Source of the DNA: Larus michahellis
Lineage: Eukaryota; Chordata; Aves; Charadriiformes; Laridae
Direction of reading: 5' to 3'
Assembly (NCBI RefSeq): GCF_964199755.1
Contig: NC_133929.1
Location: 1,426,001 to 1,490,000 of the forward strand
Length of the DNA: 64,000 bases
Positions 1 to 11,963 of this stretch are shown here, one piece after another (the stretch's first letter is position 1; each line of letters begins with the position of its first letter). The notes under the pieces were generated by a model. That model had not been told where the DNA came from. It was given only the letters and a program-made list of their open reading frames with translations, and made no database searches. Position numbers and translations under genes: made by a program.

Positions 1-921
1 ACTATCTACATCTAGCAATAACTCAGAAATAGCTGTACTAGTAGCATTGTTAAACTTATCCTTGGCAGCAAGAGAGTCCTTGTTATCACAAATCCTTGGC
101 AGCAAAAGAGTCCTTGTTAGCTAGAGCGCATGCGGACTCCCTGTTCTTGCTGGTACTGTGCTTTGATCTTCTTCCACAACAGGCCAAGATTCTCAAGCAG
201 CTGGATAAGGTGTCTGTGAGTCCATCACAGGCTTATGTCATCCAAATGTTTTTCTTGCCAGCACCTGAGGCTGAATAACACTTGGTGTGATATATGTGTT
301 TTCCAGCACCCAGGTGCGAGTCCCTTGAGTGTATTTACAATCTTCCTTGCCGATCTTCTGTTGCTTTCCCATATTCCACCCCCTTGCTCAAGAGACCGCT
401 TCTGCTGGGGTTCATTTAGTCTCACAGGGTATAACAGAGTAATTTACCAAGGCATGCAAAAACATATACACATATAGGAAAAAAACAAAAACATATCTCT
501 ATGGTACTGCTTTGAATCTGGTGTCCTATTTCTCTTTTTCTGACGCTTTCTCGTAGCGCGTATGGCATACTTTTGTGCTAACGTGGCACATTTCCCATCT
601 AATTGTTCCTGTTTGGTTTTTCTTTCCCCCTCTTTATTTTTCCTTTTCTCTTTTTTTTCTTTTTCTTTTCTTTTTCTTTTTTCTTTTTTTCTTTTTTCTT
701 TTTTTTTTCCCATCACTTACGACTGACATAAAAGTCTGCCTTTGCAACAAGAGCTCAGTTTCTCATTTTTCCTTAAGTTTCTCATTTTCCTACAGAAAAT
801 TTTTTCCCTTCTTGTTATCTTCTTCTGCGAAGGTCAGGTTCTCATGGATACACACATAGTTTTTAGAGCAACATATTCTACAACTCGTACAAGGGTACGA
901 TGCAAAGCGGCATCTACAACT
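1..921 (-). mobile_element. ERV-beta1, partial tandem copy of the env region (copy A)
   Basis: Bases 1-796 match 7714-8509 with no difference that I can see, and resemble 60389-61210. They are retroviral env-region sequence read on the minus strand. After 796 the sequence switches (a short T-rich filler) to the env 3' part (about 810-921, like 59968-60083), which then runs into the ERVL-1 insertion at 922. The order shows a partial tandem duplication of about 1.2 kb inside an older minus-strand ERV. The window starts inside the element, so its 3' LTR is not visible. An assembly duplication is an alternative to a biological one. Confidence 0.75.
444..716 (-). pseudogene. Lys/Glu/Arg-rich ORF of ERV-beta (copy A)
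   Basis: A 90-codon frame whose first half is almost only Lys, Glu and Arg, because the minus strand here is a homopurine tract. It then runs through a basic region to a short hydrophobic end and a stop. The same frame is repeated unchanged at 8157-8429 and, longer, at 60729-61127. A possible reading is the basic leader of an Env precursor. A low-complexity purine tract that merely lacks stops is the alternative. A GTAAGT lies just before the first ATG, so the tract could also be intronic. Confidence 0.4.
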
Positions 922-1272
922 TGTCGTGGTTTAGCCTCAGATGGCAACAAAAAAACCACGTGCCGCTCGCACGTGCCTTCCTAATACAGGAAGGATCGTA
1001 AGAAAAGGCAAGACTCTTGGGTTGAGACAAAGGCAGTTTAACAGAACAGCAAAGGGAACAGGCAAACAACAACAACACGGATAGGGGAATATACAAACGC
1101 GATTACGGAACCGCCGCTCCCCGCCGCTCGCCGACCGGCCGGACCCGGGACGCCCCAGCCCGCTTTTAAGCAGCAACTTCCTGCCCCCTCCCCCGGCAGC
1201 TCAGGGTGGGCGTGGCTCACATGGCATGGAATACCAGGAAAAGTTAACCCTATCCCCACCGGAACCAGGACA
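922..1272 (-). repeat. ERVL-1 3' LTR
   Basis: In its own sense the LTR begins TGTCCTGGTTCCGG and ends AAACCACGACA. It matches 7004-7403 except for about two substitutions and missing tandem units. Copies of the same family are solo at 48756-49114 and 52838-53190, and a diverged one is at 15519-15875. The purine-rich priming tract of the provirus lies at 1273-1290 (minus-strand AATAAGGGGTGGATAA). Confidence 0.93.
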
Positions 1273-1725: not shown

Positions 1726-4700
1726 TCATTGGCTATTCTCGCCCAAAATCAGATCCCCATGAGGTACACATCGGACTTCCCCATCCTGCCGCATCACCCA
1801 CCAAGTGCACCCAGGTCCTTGGGCAAAAGCAATCCCACGGATGGGTTTGCCTTTGCCTGAGGCAGGACTAACCCAGACTGTCTTCCCTAGCATATTCTTC
1901 ATATGCACTACGGGGACTTTATCCCCTTCTACAGTACGTGGAAGTTTTGATTGGGCAGGGCCAGCCCGATTGTTAGATCCCCTGGTGTTAACTAGCCAGG
2001 TAGCTTTTGCTAAATGTGTATCCCAGTGTTTTAAAGTCCCACCACCCATTGCTCTCAGTGTAGTTTTTAACAGTCCATTGTATCGTTCTATCTTCCCAGA
2101 GGCTGGTGCGTGATAGGGGATGTGACACACCCACTCGATACCATGCTCTTTGGCCCAGGTGTCTATGAGGCTGTTTCGGAAATGAGTCCCATTGTCCGAC
2201 TCAATTCTCTCTGGGGTACCATGTCACCACAGGACTTGCTTTTCAAGGCCCAGGATAGTGTTCCGGGCAGTGGCATGGGGCACAGGGTATGTTTCCAGCC
2301 ATCCAGCGGTTGCTTCCACCATTGTGAGCACATAGCGCTTGCCTTGACGGGTTTGTGGCAGTGTGATATAATCAATCTGCCAGGCCTCCCCAGATTTGTA
2401 TTTCAGCCATCGCCCTCCATACCAAAGAGGCTTCAAACGCTTGGCTTGTTTGATCGCAGCGCATGTCTCACATTCATGGATGACCTGTGCAATAGTGTCC
2501 ATGGTCAAGTCCACCCCTCGGTCACGAGCCCATCTATATGTCGCATCTCTCCCTTGATGGCCTGAGGAGTCATGGGCCCACCGAGCTATGAATAGTTCAC
2601 CCTTACGTTGCCAGTCCAGATCCACCTGAGCCACTTCAATCCTAGCGGCCCGATCCACCTGCTGGTTGTTCTGATGTTCCTCCGTGGCCCGATTCTTCGG
2701 TACGTGGGCATCTACATGGCGTACTTTCACAACCAGATTCTCTATCCGGGCAGCAATATCTTGCCATAGGTCAGCAGCCCAGATGGGTTTGCCTCTGCGC
2801 TGCCAGCTGCCCTGCTTCCACTGCTGTAACCACCCCCACAGAGCATTTGCCACCATCCATGAGTCAGCGTAGAGATAAAGTACTGGCCATTTTTCTCGCT
2901 CAGCAATGTCCAAAGCCAGCTGAATAGCCTTCACCTCTGCAAACTGGCTCGATTCACCCTGTCCCTCACTGGCTTCTGCAACCCGTCATGTAGGACTCCA
3001 CACAGCAGCCTTCCACTTTCGATGCTTTCCCACAATACGGCAGGACCCATCAGTGAACAGGGCATATTTCTTCTCATTTTCTGGCAGTTTATTATATGGT
3101 GGGGCCTCTTCTGCACGCGTCACCTCCTCCTCTGGTGACATTCCGAAATCCTTGCCTTCTGGCCAGTCCATGATCACTTCCAGAATTCCTGGGCGACTGG
3201 GGTTTCCCATTCGAGTTCGCTGCGTGATCAGTGCAATCCACTTACTCCATGTAGCATCGGTTGCATGATGTGTGGTGGGGACCCTTTCTTTGAACATCCA
3301 GCCCAGCACCGGCAGTCGAGGTGCTAAGAGGAGCTGTGCTTCTGTACCAACTACTTCCGAAGCAGCTCGAACCCCTTCATATGCTGCCAATATCTCTTTT
3401 TCTGTTGGAGTGTAGCGGGCTTCAGATCCTCTGTATCCACGACTCCCAAACCCTAGGGGTCGACCTCGAGTCTCCCCTGGTGCTTTCTGCCAGAGGCTCC
3501 AGGTAGGGCCGTTCTCCCCGGCTGCGGTATAGAGCACATTTTTAACATCTTGTCCTGCCCGGACTGGCCCCAGGGCCACTGCATGGACTATTTCCTGTTT
3601 GATTTGTTCAAAAGCTTGTCGTTGCTCAGGACCCCATTTAAAATCATTCTTCTTCCGGGTTACTTGATACAGAGGGCTTACAATTTGACTGTAATCTGGG
3701 ATATGCATTCTCCAAAAACCCACAATACCTAAGAAAGCCTGTGTTTCCTTTTTACTAGTTGGTGGAGACACAGCTGCTATTTTGTTGATCACATCCATTG
3801 GGATCTGACGGCGTCCATCTTGCCATTTTATTCCTAAAAACTGGATCTCCTGCGCAGGTCCCTTAACCTTACTTCGCTTTATAGCAAAACCAGCGTTCAG
3901 AAGGATTTGGACTATTTTACTCCCTTTCTCAAAAACTTCTTCTGCTGTGTTTCCCCATACAATGATGTCATCAATGTACTGCAGATGTTCTGGAGCTTCA
4001 CCCTGTTCCAGTGCAGTCTGGATCAGTCCATGGCAAATGGTGGGGCTGTGTTTCCACCCCTGGGGCAGTCGATTCCAGGTGTATTGGACGCCCCTCCAAG
4101 TGAAAGCAAACTGTGGCCTGCACTCTGCTGCCAAAGGGATTGAGAAGAATGCATTCGCTATATCAATCGTGGCATACCACTTGGCTGCCTTGGACTCCAG
4201 TTCGTACTGGAGTTCTAGCATGTCCGGCACGGCAGCACTCAGCGGTGGCGTGACTTCATTCAGACCACGATAGTCTACAGTTAGCCTCCACTCTCCATTA
4301 GATTTTCGCACCGGCCATATGGGACTGTTAAAGGGTGAGCGAGTCTTGCTGATCACTCCTTGAACCTCTAGTTGACGAATCAGCTCATGGATGGGAATCA
4401 GAGAGTCTCGGTTAGTGCGATACTGCCGCCGATGCACCGTTGTGGTAGCAATCGGCACCTGTTGTTCTTTGACCCTCAACAACCCCACAACAGAAGAATC
4501 CTCCGAGAGACCAGGCAAGGCAGACAACTGTTTAACTTCCTCTGTCTCCAAAGCAGCTATGCCAAAGGCCCAGCGGTACCCTTTTGGGTCCTTAAAATGC
4601 CCTCTCCTGAGGTAATCTATACCAAGGATGCATGGAGCCTCTGGGCCAGTCACAATGGGATGCTTTTGCCACTCATTCCCAGTTAGGCTCACTTCTGCCT

Positions 4701-4911
4701 CCAGTACAGTCAACTCTTGGGATCCCCCTGTCACCCCAGAAATACAAATGGGTTCTGCCCCTCTATAGCTTGATGGTATTAAAGTACACTGCGCACCCGT
4801 GTCCACTAGAGCCTTATACTCCTGTGGGTCTGATGTGCCAGGCCATCGAATCCACACCGTCCAATAAACCCGGTTGTCCCTTTCCTCCACCTGGCCGGAG
4901 GCAGGGCCCCC
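1726..4911 (-). pseudogene. pol: ERVL-1 pro-pol (protease, RT, RNase H, integrase)
   Basis: This frame follows gag in the same reading frame after a TAG (4914-4912). Visible domains in order: aspartic protease with LVDTGAQC (about 4800), reverse transcriptase with YIDD (3978-3967), RNase H with FTDGS (about 3050), integrase zinc region (H..H..CETC, about 2560-2450), then the D,D..E core (WQID, ESDNGTHF, GKIERYNG). It ends at TGA 1728-1726. Two internal TGA codons (2988-2986 and 2226-2224) break it. At the second, ERVL-2 still has CGA, which points to CpG decay. Otherwise the frame is open over about 1060 codons. YIDD instead of YVDD/YMDD and the overall motif style fit ERVL. The enzyme would copy genomic RNA and integrate it, but the stops should prevent a full product. 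Confidence 0.9.
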
Positions 4912-5967
4912 CTAATACTCGTCATAGTATCCATTACTCACTTCTTGCATAAATGACTTGGAAGTTCCTTCAAGAGGATCAGAAGCAAGATCAGGCCTTC
5001 TGCTCTGTCTGGGGAACGGCCCACTGGAAACTGGGGCGGCACTTTTCCTGGAGGGATCCCCTTTTGTGGTTGTCCTTCCTTGCAACTCCTGTACCCGTGT
5101 CCGCAGGATCGAAGTAGGTTGTCCATCCCACTTCCTCATGTCCTCTCCGTGGTCCCGCAGGTAGAACCACAGGGTGCCTCGTGGTGTGTACCCTCTGTAC
5201 TCTCTCTCTTGAGTGGGGAAATGCCTGCTTCTAATAGCTGAGATGCTGGCCCGTGCAGGTGGGGAGTAGAACATATTCTCTTCAAGTTGCTGGACCTTCC
5301 GCGACAGTTTCTCCACAGCTGAGACAAGGGGGGAAGAGAGACTTTCTTCATATCGCCGGAGCCGGCCAGCTACCTCATCCACCGTTGGTCCCTCTTCACC
5401 TTTCCATTCCATTACTGCCAGGGAGTTGGCATATGACGATGGTGCGCTCCGTACAAACTTCCGCCACATGGGCCTTGTGCATCGCACCTCATCAGGGTCT
5501 GTGGGTAAGTCGGCATTGTCCAAGTCATAATAAATCATCTCCCGCACGGCTAATTCTCTCAGGTACTGGATACCTCTTTCCATGGTAGTCCACTTGCTTG
5601 GCTGACATACAACATCCTCACTGAAGGGGTACCTCTCCCTCACGCCTAACAGGAGTCGTTTCCAGAGGCTGAGGGCTTGGGTCTTTTTCCCAATCGCCTT
5701 GTCAATGCCGCCTTCCCTAGACAGGGATCCCAGCTGCCTGGCCTCCCTACCCTCTAATTCCAGGCTACTGGCCCCATTATCCCAGCACCGGAGCAGCCAG
5801 GTGACAATGTGCTCGCCTGAGAGTTGGCTGAAATCTTTTCGCATATCCCGCAGCTCACTCAAGGATAGGGATCGAGTAATTATCTCTGGTTCTGCCTCTT
5901 CCTCCTGCTCTCGTGATGGCCCTGGTTCATCATCATCTCTTACTAAGCGAACTGATTTCTTTGTGTA
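4912..5967 (-). CDS. gag: ERVL-1 gag-like frame
   Basis: A continuous frame of about 351 codons between two in-frame TAG codons (5970-5968 before, 4914-4912 after). It starts with an acidic stretch, has an alpha-helical middle, a coiled-coil-like segment (about 5380-5290, VEKLSRKVQQLEENMF) and a basic, Ser/Pro-rich C-terminus. No Cys-His zinc knuckle is seen, which is common in ERVL Gag. There is no clear initiator ATG at its head. It may be the C-terminal part of a longer Gag that begins at 6861. It should act as the structural protein of the particle. Assignment rests on position before protease and on general composition. Confidence 0.75.
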   Translation of the reverse strand, partial: YTKKSVRLVRDDDEPGPSREQEEEAEPEIITRSLSLSELRDMRKDFSQLSGEHIVTWLLRCWDNGASSLELEGREARQLGSLSREGGIDKAIGKKTQALSLWKRLLLGVRERYPFSEDVVCQPSKWTTMERGIQYLRELAVREMIYYDLDNADLPTDPDEVRCTRPMWRKFVRSAPSSYANSLAVMEWKGEEGPTVDEVAGRLRRYEESLSSPLVSAVEKLSRKVQQLEENMFYSPPARASISAIRSRHFPTQEREYRGYTPRGTLWFYLRDHGEDMRKWDGQPTSILRTRVQELQGRTTTKGDPSRKSAAPVSSGPFPRQSRRPDLASDPLEGTSKSFMQEVSNGYYDEY

Positions 5968-6861
5968 CTACTTCTGTATGGGGGCAACTGATACCGGCAC
6001 GGGTTGGTTCCCTGGTTCAGTGGCAGTGGCTACCACGGGGGTTGCAGTAACCGCAGTGTCTGCCACAGGGGTTGCAGTAGCCGCAGTGTCTGCCGCAGGG
6101 GTTGCAGTAGCCGCAGGGGCCGCCGCAGGGGTTGCAGTAGCCGCAGGGGCCGCCGCAGGGGCTGCAGCAGCCGCAGGGGCCGCCGGTCTGGTTTCCATCT
6201 CTTCCCCTTGAGGGTGCTGCATAATTCTGAGCAGTGCCTGGTAGATACTGGCCAGGGCCCAGCACAGCGCGGTGAGTTGTGCCTCTCTAGAATAGCCACA
6301 GCATTTTCCCTTCAAATATTCTACCACTTTATCAGGGTCCTGTAATTGTTCAGGGGTGAAGTCCCAGACCATTGGAGGTGAGTAGTTCTCTAGGTACCTG
6401 CCCATGCTCTCCCACATGCCATGCCACCCCTGACTATCCAGCCTCGGAGCAGATCTCCGGGTGGTAGTCTTAAATAGTCGCTTAACCCTAAACAAGACCT
6501 GGAACGTATTCAGGAGACATAGCACTAGGAACACACTAGTTTGAGTATCCCAAGGATATTCAAGATTCTCAAAAGCTGTCATACCTGACCCGAAGGAGAA
6601 AAGGGAGGCAAAAGGGCTGGGGAAACTATTAACAAATTCTGAGAGACGGTGTCCAATGTACGGACAGGACAACAAAACCACATAAACACCCCAAAATAGC
6701 CGTCTGAACAGTGATGTTATCATATCATAAACAGATATCGCACAGGACAGCAGAATGATAATCCTCATCCCTCTTCCAGACATGGTAAACAGCATCGCAG
6801 GGAGTACATAAGCCATATAGGAATTTATGTAACACAGCCATGAGAACAAACCAAGCAACAT
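5968..6861 (-). CDS. ERVL-1 ORF ahead of gag with membrane segments and Ala/Pro repeats
   Basis: 297 codons from an ATG at 6861-6859, about 117 nt after the primer site, to a TAG at 5970-5968. Residues about 1-70 hold two or three hydrophobic stretches (for example RIIILLSCAISVYD), and another lies near 108-125 (TSVFLVLCLLNTFQVLF). A basic stretch (RVKRLFKTTTRR) follows. Residues about 160-220 are helical, with KGKCCGYS. The last 70 are Ala/Pro/Thr-rich, coded by 30-bp repeats. It is in the same frame as gag, so it may be the Gag N-terminus with one stop, or a separate protein. A membrane-anchored Gag would fit assembly at an internal membrane; that is inference. I do not recognise a named family. 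Confidence 0.7.
   Translation of the reverse strand: MLLGLFSWLCYINSYMAYVLPAMLFTMSGRGMRIIILLSCAISVYDMITSLFRRLFWGVYVVLLSCPYIGHRLSEFVNSFPSPFASLFSFGSGMTAFENLEYPWDTQTSVFLVLCLLNTFQVLFRVKRLFKTTTRRSAPRLDSQGWHGMWESMGRYLENYSPPMVWDFTPEQLQDPDKVVEYLKGKCCGYSREAQLTALCWALASIYQALLRIMQHPQGEEMETRPAAPAAAAAPAAAPAATATPAAAPAATATPAADTAATATPVADTAVTATPVVATATEPGNQPVPVSVAPIQK
6038..6187 (-). repeat. 30-bp tandem repeat inside the ERVL-1 membrane ORF
   Basis: About five units of a 30-bp sequence related to GGGGTTGCAGTAGCCGCAG (plus strand) followed by a variable GTGTCTGCC/GGGCCGCC half. Each unit adds ten residues of Ala/Thr/Pro. The length is a multiple of three, so copy number can change without shifting the frame. 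Confidence 0.85.
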
Positions 6862-6977: not shown

Positions 6978-6995
6978 GCCCCACGTTGGGCGCCA
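6978..6995 (-). promoter_or_regulatory. ERVL-1 primer-binding site, tRNA-Lys1,2 type
   Basis: Minus strand TGGCGCCCAACGTGGGGC is the well-known 18-nt complement to the tRNA-Lys(CUU) 3' end. It lies 8 nt after the 5' LTR end, a longer spacer than the usual 0-3 nt. Confidence 0.88.
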
Positions 6996-7003
6996 AAAAG
7001 GAC

Positions 7004-7403
7004 TGTCGTGGTTTAGCCTCAGATGGCAACAAAAAAACCACGTGCCGCTCGCACGTGCCTTCCTAATACAGGAAGGACCGTAAGAAAAGGCAAGACTCTT
7101 GGGTTGGGACAAAGGCAGTTTAACAGAACAGCAAAGGGAACAGGCAAACAACAACAACAACAACAACACGGATAGGGGAATATACAAACGCGATTACGGA
7201 ACCGGATAGGGGAATATACAAACGCGATTACGGAACCGCCGCTCCCCGCCGCTCGCCGACCGGCCGGACCCGGACCCGGGACGCCCCAGCCCGCTTTTAA
7301 GCAGCAACTTCCTGCCCCCTCCCCCGGCAGCTCAGGGTGGGCGTGGCTCACATGGCATGGAATACCAGGAAAAGTTAACCCTATCCCCACCGGAACCAGG
7401 ACA
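7004..7403 (-). repeat. ERVL-1 5' LTR with internal duplications
   Basis: Same family as 922-1272 but 49 bp longer. Extra sequence comprises a 34-bp tandem duplication (7170-7203 and 7204-7237), extra CAA units at about 7148-7168 and a 6-bp repeat near 7263-7274. Outside these, I see about two substitutions from the 3' LTR. Copies of one integration should start identical, so the repeats changed afterwards or one LTR was converted. Confidence 0.92.
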
Positions 7404-7530
7404 CAACTGATCGCATAATGCTTATTAAACATGGCAAACAGCATACTAAACATAACAGACAAATTCCTTCCACACAGGCAATAATTTGCTTCAACCAACC
7501 CCACCCCCAAGTCCATCCAGCAAAGAGATT

Positions 7531-7818
7531 TCACCCAGTGGTTTCCACAAGTTGCTGGTTCGGTCGGTGCAGTTCCTGCAGCTGGGCATGGATGGATTTG
7601 GAGTGGTCACTTAGATTCATACAATACAGTCCTTTAAAATCTTGACAACCATGTCTGTGAGCTGAAAGTAAAAAATCAGTAGCAGCTCTGTTTTGCAGCG
7701 TCGCATATCGAATACTATCTACATCTAGCAATAACTCAGAAATAGCTGTACTAGTAGCATTGTTAAACTTATCCTTGGCAGCAAGAGAGTCCTTGTTATC
7801 ACAAATCCTTGGCAGCAA
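7531..7818 (-). pseudogene. env: ERV-beta1 env transmembrane (TM) subunit fragment
   Basis: A 95-codon frame with the heptad region followed by LQNRAATDFLL, typical of the retroviral immunosuppressive-domain region, and then a C-X6-YC disulfide loop motif. In alpha/gamma-type TM the motif is CX6CC, so the first of the paired cysteines is replaced by Tyr. The frame stops at 7531, before any membrane anchor, so it is truncated or shifted. The same fragment occurs at 60212-60499, and its 5' end is also in copy A before base 1. Confidence 0.85.
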
Positions 7819-8156
7819 AAGAGTCCTTGTTAGCTAGAGCGCATGCGGACTCCCTGTTCTTGCTGGTACTGTGCTTTGATCTTCTTCCACAACAGGCCAA
7901 GATTCTCAAGCAGCTGGATAAGGTGTCTGTGAGTCCATCACAGGCTTATGTCATCCAAATGTTTTTCTTGCCAGCACCTGAGGCTGAATAACACTTGGTG
8001 TGATATATGTGTTTTCCAGCACCCAGGTGCGAGTCCCTTGAGTGTATTTACAATCTTCCTTGCCGATCTTCTGTTGCTTTCCCATATTCCACCCCCTTGC
8101 TCAAGAGACCGCTTCTGCTGGGGTTCATTTAGTCTCACAGGGTATAACAGAGTAAT

Positions 8157-8429
8157 TTACCAAGGCATGCAAAAACATATACACATATAGGAAAAAAACA
8201 AAAACATATCTCTATGGTACTGCTTTGAATCTGGTGTCCTATTTCTCTTTTTCTGACGCTTTCTCGTAGCGCGTATGGCATACTTTTGTGCTAACGTGGC
8301 ACATTTCCCATCTAATTGTTCCTGTTTGGTTTTTCTTTCCCCCTCTTTATTTTTCCTTTTCTCTTTTTTTTCTTTTTCTTTTCTTTTTCTTTTTTCTTTT
8401 TTTCTTTTTTCTTTTTTTTTTCCCATCAC
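8157..8429 (-). pseudogene. Lys/Glu/Arg-rich ORF of ERV-beta1 (copy B)
   Basis: Identical to 444-716. Homopurine minus strand gives a KKEKRKK-type start, then an RKRQKKR-like basic stretch, then a short hydrophobic run and stop. It lies upstream, in viral sense, of the env remnant. The layout (long basic N-terminus, then hydrophobic core) resembles the long Env leader peptides known in some betaretroviruses, but I cannot prove homology. Confidence 0.42.
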
Positions 8430-8514
8430 TTACGACTGACATAAAAGTCTGCCTTTGCAACAAGAGCTCAGTTTCTCATTTTTCCTTAAGTTTCTCATTT
8501 TCCTACAGAGCATC

Positions 8515-9057: not shown

Positions 9058-10404
9058 CTATGCACGTATAAGCAGTTGATAAGGAGGAACAGATGCAGTA
9101 CCTGGCGCAAATGGAGAAGGGTTAAGAACGGAGGAGCACGATAACAACTTTCGTCGCTGTTGCTGTAAAATCTCCGCAGTTGGAGCAGATGCAGGCATAG
9201 CTTTAATTGGGGTTAAAGGTGGATATAAATCAGGTTCAGTCTCTGGATTTATTGGACCAGGATCAAAGGGGCTCCCAGGATCATCCTCAGGGCTATTACA
9301 GAATAGGGTAGAGTGAACTTGAGTGCCTCCTTTCCCTTCGGCTTGTTCTGATCTCGGCAAGACCAGGGGGCAATCGTCTGCTTTAAAATTAGGAGGTGCG
9401 GCAGTTGCCCCAGACGGAGCAGAATCGTTATTGCTCGCAGCTTGTCTGATATCCTCCTGTTTCCGTATCATCTCTAGAATTTGCCACCAATCGGTTTGAT
9501 AAGAGATAGATCCCACTTGGTTGCAAGCTTCTATCATATCTATTAAGCCTGGATTCTTTAAGGCTTGTAATATACGCCTACCCATAAGAAGAACTCGCTG
9601 TGTTGGGGTAGAAATAACTTCGGCTAGCTGCTTGATATCGAATGGAGTTAGTATGTGTCCTTTCATAATGTTATTTAATAGTCCTTGTGCATAAGGGGAG
9701 GTTAGTCCATGCTGCATAATCGTTTTCCGCATTTCTCTAACCAGCTCCCACCTTATCGGTTCCCAGGTGTTTGTCCCATTTTGATTAAACAGTACCGGAC
9801 AGGCGATGGCAGTAGTGGCTTCTATATCGCTGTCCTGTAATGCCTGTTTACGTAAATTCTGCCAGTGTTGAGCAGGATTATAAGTTGCAGTGACCGCCGG
9901 ACTTGGTGACGGACTTGGCAAGGAATCGCCCCAACCCGGTAACACAGGAGAACGCGGCGGTATCAACGTCACATCTAGCGGGGGTGCTAATGGCGCAGCC
10001 GGACAGTTTGGGGGATCAGGTTTCCCCCCCTCTGTCTGAGTGGTAATCGGGCTGTCCGGTGCCACAGCTGCAACGGCGGCTGCTGTGGCATTTCGTTCGG
10101 ATTTTACCTGCTGTTAAGTATCTTTAATCAACCTCCAGGTTGTCAAAACCTTTGTGGCAGTCGCATCCCCTTTTGTTTCAGCCTCAAATAAAGTTTCGCC
10201 CGCTTGCTCCCAACTTGATAATTGGAAAGCCGTTGTAGAATCAGCGGCAAGACCCTTGCTTTTTAGCCATGCCAGTAAAAGTTGAAAAGTTCCTTCATCG
10301 TATTGAATATCCCTTCTACTTAAAAACTTTCCTAATATACATACAATTGCCTTTTCCTCTGAGGAAATTTTCAATCCAATCCTCACACATCCCTGGCTGC
10401 TCAC
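9058..10404 (-). pseudogene. gag: ERV-beta1 gag, rearranged
   Basis: Starts about 100 nt after the primer site with a matrix-like domain (10404-10114, stop TAA). It continues in the same frame as a Pro-rich linker and a capsid N-terminal half (WEPIRWELVREMRK, TSPYAQGLLNNIM, LTPFDIKQL). Then it jumps to the capsid end (ILQALKNPGLIDMIEAC), missing about 130 residues compared with ERV-T. It ends in a Pro/Asp-rich region that looks like linker sequence from before the capsid. No zinc knuckles remain. Betaretrovirus-like Gag, not functional. Confidence 0.82.
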
Positions 10405-10526: not shown

Positions 10527-10773
10527 TGTGGAGCATGGATTCATGGACTCTGGCGGGGTACAGACCAAAGACCTTTATTGCAACAATCTGACAGGCTTTA
10601 TAGCTATACACACTCTCCACGTGCAAGTTGTGTTCTGCTGATAGGTTGAAGGTTGACTGCCACGCGCTTCTCTACTTCTTCCGATTGGTTTCTGCTGTCT
10701 GCCCACGAGGGGCAACAACTTCATTCTCACATCCTGTTTCTTACTGATTCTTACTTGGTTTTCTGTTCTCACA
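10527..10773 (-). repeat. ERV-beta1 5' LTR (247 bp)
   Basis: TG...CA ends, in sense TGTGAGAACAG...ATGCTCCACA. It has a TATAAA-like box (minus strand GCTATAAAGCC, about 10598-10608) and AATAAA (about 10577). It is unrelated by eye to the 370-bp LTR of ERV-beta3, although the env-side block is shared. Confidence 0.82.
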
Positions 10774-11963
10774 AACCCTCTCTCAAGGATGCAGCTTTAT
10801 CTCATCAAGGTCGAACAGACCTATGCTGCTCTCTATTCCCACACCAAAACAATGTTCCCTTGGCTCTTAGTTGTATCCAAGCCCAATTGTGGATGCAATC
10901 TATGACAGCCACAATCATAAGGGAAGGTGAAGAAGGCACCTTGCCCACTGAAATTCGAAAAGTAATATGGGATAACGCAATTGAATTTGAGAAAAAATTT
11001 CAGTCCTGGTGGTATCTGGTTAATTTCACCTATGATCCCATTGAGAGCAAGGCCACAGCTTTTGTCCTAACGATACGCAATGCTTTGGTATACACCATAT
11101 ACCGAATCATTGCGCTGGGGTTGAATCACCAAGGAGCCATACTCTATCCAATAGAGCACAGAGTGTGGGCACAACAAAATGAGAATAAATGGCAAACTGT
11201 TGATGTTGACGCATGCATTTCACGAGACCAACAAGGATTCATTTGTGAGAGTAATACCTTCAAAGTGCAAGACATTTGTCTTGACACCAACCAGAATGTT
11301 TGTCACTTTGAGATACATCCCGATGAAACCCCAGAGACTGTGCTTGTATATATTGGGAAAGGGTGCGTTTCCATGAGGTCTCCCTGTAGTCTTGTATTCG
11401 TAGATGACATAGTGGTGGATATAAGTAATCACTCAAATCTTTGTGTTTGTAACTTTACTAACATTATCGGATGTGACTTCAGTTATTCAGCTCCTGTTAT
11501 GTCTTTTCAATTGCTACAATCTAATTATACGTTGATTGGAGATTTATTGCCTACCCCTATCAGAATGAATCTCTCGCCAGTGAAGAAGCTGCTACAACGC
11601 GATGAATTGAAGCGACTGTTGAAAGAGGCCCAAGAAAATGGACAGAGAACTTTGATTACCGTCCATCATGATGTTGAAGAACTACACCAAGTGCTGGAAA
11701 GAGTCAAGAGAGGCGGAGGACATGAATGGGGAGACACTCTTTTTGGATGGTCGCCGACAGCTACAGGACTTTATAACAAGATGCTCCATCCTCTTGTTGT
11801 TCTACTAATACTCACTGTATTGTGCTTTGCTTTGACAATTGTTTTGTATGTTAGACTTTGGATTATGATGAAAAGTTTAACTCGTTTGATCACTCCACGA
11901 GATGTATTGGCACTTGATATCCCTCACCACAAGAACACATGTGATCTTTCCTATCAGTATTGA
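10774..11963 (+). pseudogene. env: Env-like protein, 5'-truncated, intact to its stop
   Basis: About 396 codons with no stop, read from the junction with the ERV-beta1 LTR to TGA at 11961-11963. It has many Cys and N-glycosylation sites (NFT, NYT), a helical region, and near the end a hydrophobic anchor (11790-11865, VVLLILTVLCFALTIVLYV) followed by a short basic tail. No CX6CC motif is seen, so it is not a standard gamma/alpha TM. It lies directly upstream of LTR-C1 in the same sense, so it probably belongs to that element. The signal peptide and N-terminus were lost to the ERV-beta1 insertion. Family uncertain. Confidence 0.55.

Follow-up and report, generated by a model that had tools for sequence, protein, structure and literature searches.

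The window analysed in this study is a 64,000-nucleotide stretch of the Larus michahellis genome (contig NC_133929.1, positions 1,426,001 to 1,490,000, forward strand), and its minus strand carries an ERVL-like provirus. An open reading frame (ORF) of 297 codons (6861-5968, minus strand) with an ATG start and a TAG stop lies after the primer site (6978-6995) of this provirus and before its Gag core. We found that this frame is the N-terminal part of gag and makes up a little under half of Gag. Its residues 1-130 are hydrophobic and, judging from the sequence, they probably form a polytopic membrane anchor that replaces the matrix domain in bird class III Gag, with a cytosolic core and assembly probably at the endoplasmic reticulum (ER).

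A first-pass annotation had described this ORF as a membrane-segment frame placed ahead of gag. The frame is real and beyond chance (132 scored matches in the window's genome), and it starts at 6861, 116 bases past the primer site. The position ahead of gag was wrong: after a single stop the core reads on in the frame of the ORF, which is thus gag's own 5' end. The window's genome (1.4 Gb) was searched separately with the reported frame and with the core. The reported frame gave 3567 first-look candidates, of which 132 were scored; a frame of at least 569 amino acids (aa) holds 109 of the 132, and four of the 109 include a stop within the matched stretch. The core-only query, which has no bias toward the N-terminal part, gave 116 scored matches from 3392 candidates; the frame around 108 of these was 567 aa or longer, and five of the 108 carried one stop inside the core. 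The eight exceptions were four copies of a local array, the copy at C1:200250195, and three copies with frames of 425-503 aa. These long-frame counts were made by hand, and the search reads through stops inside a match. Twenty copies were then hand-picked from the core list, mostly absent from the list of the N-terminal query. The same N-terminal part was found in all 20, and 17 were open for at least 620 codons from the ATG, the other three being frameshifted. The best core matches all belonged to the window's close family (98-100%), so this sample covers that family and not distant ones.

A further 60 gag pieces were hand-picked because they matched the N-terminal part or P0071, a choice biased toward copies that carry the N-terminal part. 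The ATG was kept in 58 of the 60, with an in-frame stop 4-5 codons upstream of it in 58, and the core was present with its start in frame in 59. The frame was open for at least 545 codons from the start site in 42. Other copies do carry the frame, as the first-pass annotation had asked to be checked. When the two sets were taken together, a stop directly before the core was seen in two of 80 gag pieces (one array copy and the C1 copy) and was absent from 77; in one piece the core start was not located. The stop at the window's boundary is known at five places, namely the window, three array mates, and the C1 copy. These results indicate that the 297-aa form in the window is a truncation product and not a functional unit.

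The array is a local duplication, in which window positions 1-796 are identical to 7714-8509 and three copies are spaced by 7712 bases. The provirus and its flank were observed within a local tandem and inverted duplication with a unit of about 7712 bases (C38:1388854-1405168), on a contig rich in endogenous retroviruses that is possibly W. The copy at C1:200250195 (L092) lies outside the array, and it has a frameshift further upstream in addition to the stop directly before the core.

We examined hydropathy on the Kyte-Doolittle scale with a 19-residue window, for which the usual threshold is 1.6. The N-terminal region showed peaks at residues 34-52 (2.06) and 108-126 (1.74) and weaker ones at 2-20 and 48-66 (both 1.39). 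In length the segments suit passage through a bilayer; two exceed 1.6 and the other two reach 1.39. Of the three or four hydrophobic segments first claimed, two are clear and two weaker, and a count of four is not proven. Mean hydropathy was 1.05 over residues 1-80 versus -0.86 in the Gag core, where the 19-residue maximum was 0.44; peaks in relatives reached 2.75. The AlphaFold model placed helices at 2-27, 30-65, 67-79, and 103-135. Among 27 relatives whose sequence covers the loop between the third and fourth segments, 24 have an N-X-S/T sequon there at a similar position (16/16 in one set and 8/11 in a second); rows that do not cover the loop were omitted, eight of them beginning past it or having an unrelated start, and three others. 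In the window's genome, the sequon was present in 24 of 25 copies with a long loop. Of 19 rows, 13 carried four or more Lys or Arg residues within the 25 positions that follow the fourth segment; the 25 positions preceding that segment held three at most in every row. The sequon and the basic flank, together with hydropathy, favour a luminal third loop and a cytosolic core. These results suggest that the N-terminal domain inserts into a membrane.

We next compared 61 sequences (the 60 gag pieces and the window) by pairwise Nei-Gojobori estimates of nonsynonymous to synonymous substitution (dN/dS). For residues 1-130, dN/dS was 0.38 in 696 pairs with dS 0.1-0.3 and 0.33 in 326 pairs with dS above 0.3, so the synonymous excess between diverged copies that the first-pass annotation wanted checked is present, at about 0.33-0.38. 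In the dS 0.1-0.3 bin, the values were 0.23 for the helical domain, 0.33 for the core, and 0.76 for the repeat tail, which gave 0.56 at dS above 0.3; the core value is unusable in this last bin because frameshifted copies enter it. Closer pairs gave 0.86 (dS below 0.03) and 0.46 (dS 0.03-0.1) for residues 1-130, as expected if post-insertion changes are neutral. Three chosen between-clade pairs gave Fisher p values of 0.0012, 0.00015, and 0.002. Between two subfamilies (5 by 8 chosen sequences), the median ratio of nonsynonymous to synonymous differences per site (pN/pS) was 0.37 in frame (0.29-0.76), and one of the shifted frames gave 1.58 (1.27-2.22). In the more varied subfamily, differences numbered 274, 113, and 310 by codon position, and the low variation at second positions is the mark of a region kept hydrophobic. 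These are indications that the hydrophobic region is under purifying selection between diverged copies, with a dN/dS like that of the core.

The gag 5' end also differed from the rest of the gene in its distances. Codons 1-120 diverge by 0.09-0.14 nt between the two subfamilies, compared with 0.02-0.06 in the core, and the synonymous distance from the window differs between gag parts in several pairs. Because region 1-120 is more diverged than the core, it has its own history, and recombination may have swapped the gag 5' end.

Predicted proteins of Morphnus, Buteo, Theristicus (an ibis), three Anas species, Anser, Manacus (a suboscine), and sources without a name also carried the hydrophobic start fused to the core; the Buteo record was without the first hydrophobic segment. 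The Gags of duck, raptor, ibis, and manakin have a common layout of hydrophobic N-terminus, helical domain, linker, and core, and in these predicted proteins the layout occurs in both Galloanserae and Neoaves. Within Anas alone, the linker that separates the helical domain from the core ranged from short to several hundred residues. Many records of Grus, Limosa, Mycteria, and Alca begin past the hydrophobic region. The closest named Gag core among the matches listed was that of the razorbill Alca torda (88%), a match that would place the host near the shorebirds. Among the best 120 of 689 and the best 120 of 375 matches, every named organism was a bird save two labelled Klebsiella, and no mammalian ERV-L Gag was listed. 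The two records labelled Klebsiella pneumoniae (P0004 and P0166) hold pieces of bird ERVL Gag and are probably host contamination.

Many ERVL Gags in Grus, Limosa, and Mycteria records are named 'ubiquitin carboxyl-terminal hydrolase 4' (USP4). Three predicted USP4 isoforms, P0058 (Buteo), P0073 (Accipiter), and P0089 (Tyto), join the USP4 N-terminus to an ERVL Gag of 490-507 aa. The junction falls at the same exon end (CLGLQK) in all three, and the Gag part is without the hydrophobic region. Among the proteins fetched, the three Gag parts are mutually best relatives by bit score (84%, 75%, and 66% identity). No Gag was found in the 5.9 kb starting at the CLGLQK-ending USP4 exon of the window's genome. 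The chimeras may go back to a single old insertion of gag whose frame has stayed open in two bird orders, which would make it a candidate for co-option, and the naming of bird ERVL Gags has perhaps been carried over from them.

Several observations weigh against a membrane anchor kept by selection. Only two segments of the window protein exceed 1.6, and the AlphaFold model of the N-terminal part is poor (mean pLDDT 62.9, pTM 0.31) and returned no fold match. The sequon is absent from three of the 27 relatives (two Anas forms and Anser), a set that includes near-duplicates, from one of the 25 long-loop copies, and from all 36 sequences examined of the window's own subfamily, which is without it because the loop is 12 codons shorter. 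As the sequon is missing in some lineages, glycosylation is not essential. Fewer than four Lys or Arg residues follow the last segment in six of the 19 rows, and one duck form has one Lys or Arg and five Asp or Glu there. The internal membrane envisaged in the first-pass annotation fits the conserved sequon, but it is still conjecture, and the window's own subfamily lacks the sequon. With regard to selection, the +1 shifted frame also gave a lowish pN/pS of 0.58 (0.34-0.70), and the window's subfamily (five sequences) showed 36, 20, and 20 differences by codon position, with no third-position excess. The synonymous excess in a stricter, site-based count of shared variants was marginal (p 0.052), as was a test of whether changes keep hydrophobicity (19/24, p 0.024). 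Copy pairs are non-independent, and the selection results are therefore indications rather than clean tests.

Other roles for the hydrophobic N-terminus were considered. The glycoGag of murine leukaemia virus (MLV) is described as an N-terminally extended, glycosylated membrane Gag of predicted type II; this alternative form starts at a CUG, is predicted to cross the membrane once, and has its C-terminus outside the cell. It is evidence that Gag in a membrane form can serve a different function (PMC12530543). By likeness to this membrane-inserted and N-glycosylated form (glycosylation being predicted here), the bird membrane Gag could counter a host factor or aid release as an accessory, while a shorter core-only Gag, made from an internal start or by splicing, builds the particles. 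This is unlikely in our view. Many predicted bird proteins begin past the hydrophobic region (e.g., P0025 and P0018), the USP4-Gag chimeras join just downstream of it, and 23 of 60 copies have a GTAAG, resembling a splice donor, 20 nt upstream of the ATG. However, the donor-like site is absent there in the other 37, the downstream starts in gene models are predictions, and the ATG begins the hydrophobic region in 58 of 60 copies. The bird Gag differs from glycoGag in starting at this ATG, with the in-frame stop just upstream in 58 of 60 rather than a non-AUG upstream start, and its core should be cytosolic. We regard it as quite unlikely that the N-terminus is an amphipathic or buried helical oligomerisation domain and no anchor. 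The model for such a domain is Fv1, which is related to ERV-L gag and carries an N-terminal coiled coil (PMC3948346), a difference from the bird Gag, and long helices are predicted here in the weak AlphaFold model. Against it stand the mean hydropathy over residues 1-80 and the higher peaks in relatives, the retention of the sequon by most lineages, and a basic flank that most rows share.

Another reading is that the hydrophobic domain is left over from the capture of an env or host membrane gene and now serves no function. No relative outside Gag turned up and region 1-120 is more diverged between subfamilies than the core, but purifying selection between diverged copies of one genome and the wide distribution in birds make this very improbable. 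Least credible of all is a separate membrane protein encoded ahead of gag, perhaps with readthrough of the TAG. A stop does stand directly before the core in the window, in three array copies, and in one C1 copy; yet 77 of the 80 gag pieces have none there, the C1 piece is one of the two that do and carries a frameshift besides, and in other birds full-length Gags read through. Of the two options offered in the first-pass annotation, the membrane-anchored Gag N-terminus is supported, and the separate membrane protein is not, because the frame runs into gag in most copies examined and in other birds.

Retroviral Gag is usually seen as a soluble protein that reaches the membrane through a lipid tail, a basic patch, or, rarely, a signal peptide. 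In the anchored-Gag model that we prefer, the first 130 or so residues of Gag in this ERVL-like family are a hydrophobic domain that stands in the place of matrix and probably makes three to four membrane passes. Next come a basic stretch with the helical domain, then an Ala/Pro/Thr linker that varies, and finally the Gag core. The hydrophobic domain is suggested to insert co-translationally into the membrane, which would put the loop that precedes the last segment, where most lineages keep the sequon, in the lumen and the stretch after that segment, together with the core, in the cytosol. The anchored Gag would assemble on the cytosolic face of the ER and then bud inward or stay membrane-bound, and the outcome would be an intracellular cycle without env. 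In its widest form, which we hold only tentatively though it may well apply, the model describes an env-less clade across birds, from ducks to songbirds, whose Gag is a polytopic ER membrane protein with matrix replaced, assembly tied to translation at the ER, and an intracellular life by design.

A literature search, with most subscription journals outside its scope, returned no report of a membrane-spanning bird ERVL Gag, and we know of no report of a hydrophobic start as a general feature of class III Gag, mammalian Gags having been left uncompared. IAP is a class II retrotransposon whose Gag targeting is of signal-peptide type, in contrast to the conserved polytopic domain of the bird Gag. 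IAP Gag is taken to the ER membrane co-translationally by the signal recognition particle (PMC3945221). MuERV-L, which is class III and env-less, forms virus-like (epsilon) particles that accumulate in the ER (PMC5930517). The bird elements resemble it in class and in being without env, and would do so in their proposed ER site. The songbird element TguERVL2_I_Ucy is a bird ERVL of 6.4 kb that likewise has two long ORFs in one frame, with AP-RT-RH-INT domains (protease, reverse transcriptase (RT), RNase H, and integrase), and a curious 'envelope glycoprotein C' match is reported inside its gag ORF (PMC6523648). The main text of that paper nowhere uses the word transmembrane. This match may arise from the hydrophobic Gag region. 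The frog class III element XtERV-S has an ERV-L-related Gag without distinguishable matrix, capsid, and nucleocapsid (MA, CA, and NC), with polybasic regions at 6-10 and 130-149, and tagged Gag was located at the plasma membrane and in the nucleus; it differs in that the description of its Gag mentions no hydrophobic N-terminus (PMC8278194).

The features of the provirus are shown in Table 1. The long terminal repeats (LTRs) aligned over 351 bases with two substitutions and 49 gap columns, and the two substitutions suggest that the provirus is young. CAACT, as read from the flanks, stands at both ends (917-921 and 7404-7408). The Ala/Pro/Thr repeat tail of the first-pass annotation is present as a 30-nt tandem repeat; the repeat region varies in length among copies, whose intact Gag frames run from about 620 to 716 codons.

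Table 1. Coordinates of the provirus and its parts in the window (minus strand).
Feature	Position (strand)	Basis or remark
Endogenous retrovirus, 5' LTR	7004..7403 (-)	
Primer binding site TGGCGCCCAACGTGGGGC	6978..6995 (-)	read from sequence
gag N-terminal part (reported ORF)	5968..6861 (-)	TAG at 5968-5970
Hydrophobic region, residues 1-130	6472..6861 (-)	hydropathy and AlphaFold
Helical domain		residues 131-220 of the reported ORF
Ala/Pro/Thr repeat		about residues 221-290 of the reported ORF
30-nt tandem repeat encoding the Ala/Pro/Thr linker	6023..6202 (-)	
Gag core	4912..5967 (-)	same frame as the reported ORF; terminal TAG 4912-4914
pol: protease, RT, first RNase H part	2986..4890 (-)	same frame as gag
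pol: RNase H and integrase part	2224..2934 (-)	ORF end at 2224
Integrase C-terminal part	1726..2199 (-)	assigned by eye
3' LTR	922..1272 (-)	

In pol, RT, RNase H, and integrase domains were recognised, and a protease match (E 0.0064) fell below the Pfam cut-off. The domains follow the order protease, RT, RNase H, and integrase, pol shares its frame with gag, and the pol ORFs terminate at 2986 and 2224. The element is without env, since inspection of three frames from integrase to the 3' LTR revealed no long env-like frame; Pfam gave nothing significant in 1729-2130, and the frames past integrase are closed. The best match of pol among solved structures was Pr125Pol (7o0h, 172.8 bits), which we take to be foamy-type, versus 154.9 bits for the best RT p80 entry, presumably MLV-type. 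With Pr125Pol as the best match, class III is a fair label, based on structure matches rather than on an RT tree, and class III / ERVL-like appears acceptable for the provirus. HERV-L and MuERV-L have a Leu-type primer site, and the site here is different, being one that we take to be Lys(1,2)-type; its first 17 bases were exact in 44 of 60 gag-region copies from the window's genome. XtERV-S has a Ser primer site, so primer type varies within class III. The TAG that lies between gag and pol, which share one frame, is followed by a G-rich stretch and looks like a site of stop-codon readthrough as in MLV. Elsewhere in the window, a 436-aa frame at 10653-11963 (+) with a hydrophobic stretch near its C-terminus is Env-like by eye and has no Pfam match, and a Gag_p24 frame at 9058-10065 (-) belongs to another retrovirus.

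If the anchored-Gag model is true, a conserved multi-pass anchor on Gag in abundant and recently active bird elements would be another solution to membrane targeting, and it would explain in concrete terms why these elements can do without env. It would link the ER particles of mouse ERV-L to a testable sequence feature. It would matter, too, for the numerous bird gene models starting past the hydrophobic region, a good number of them named USP4.
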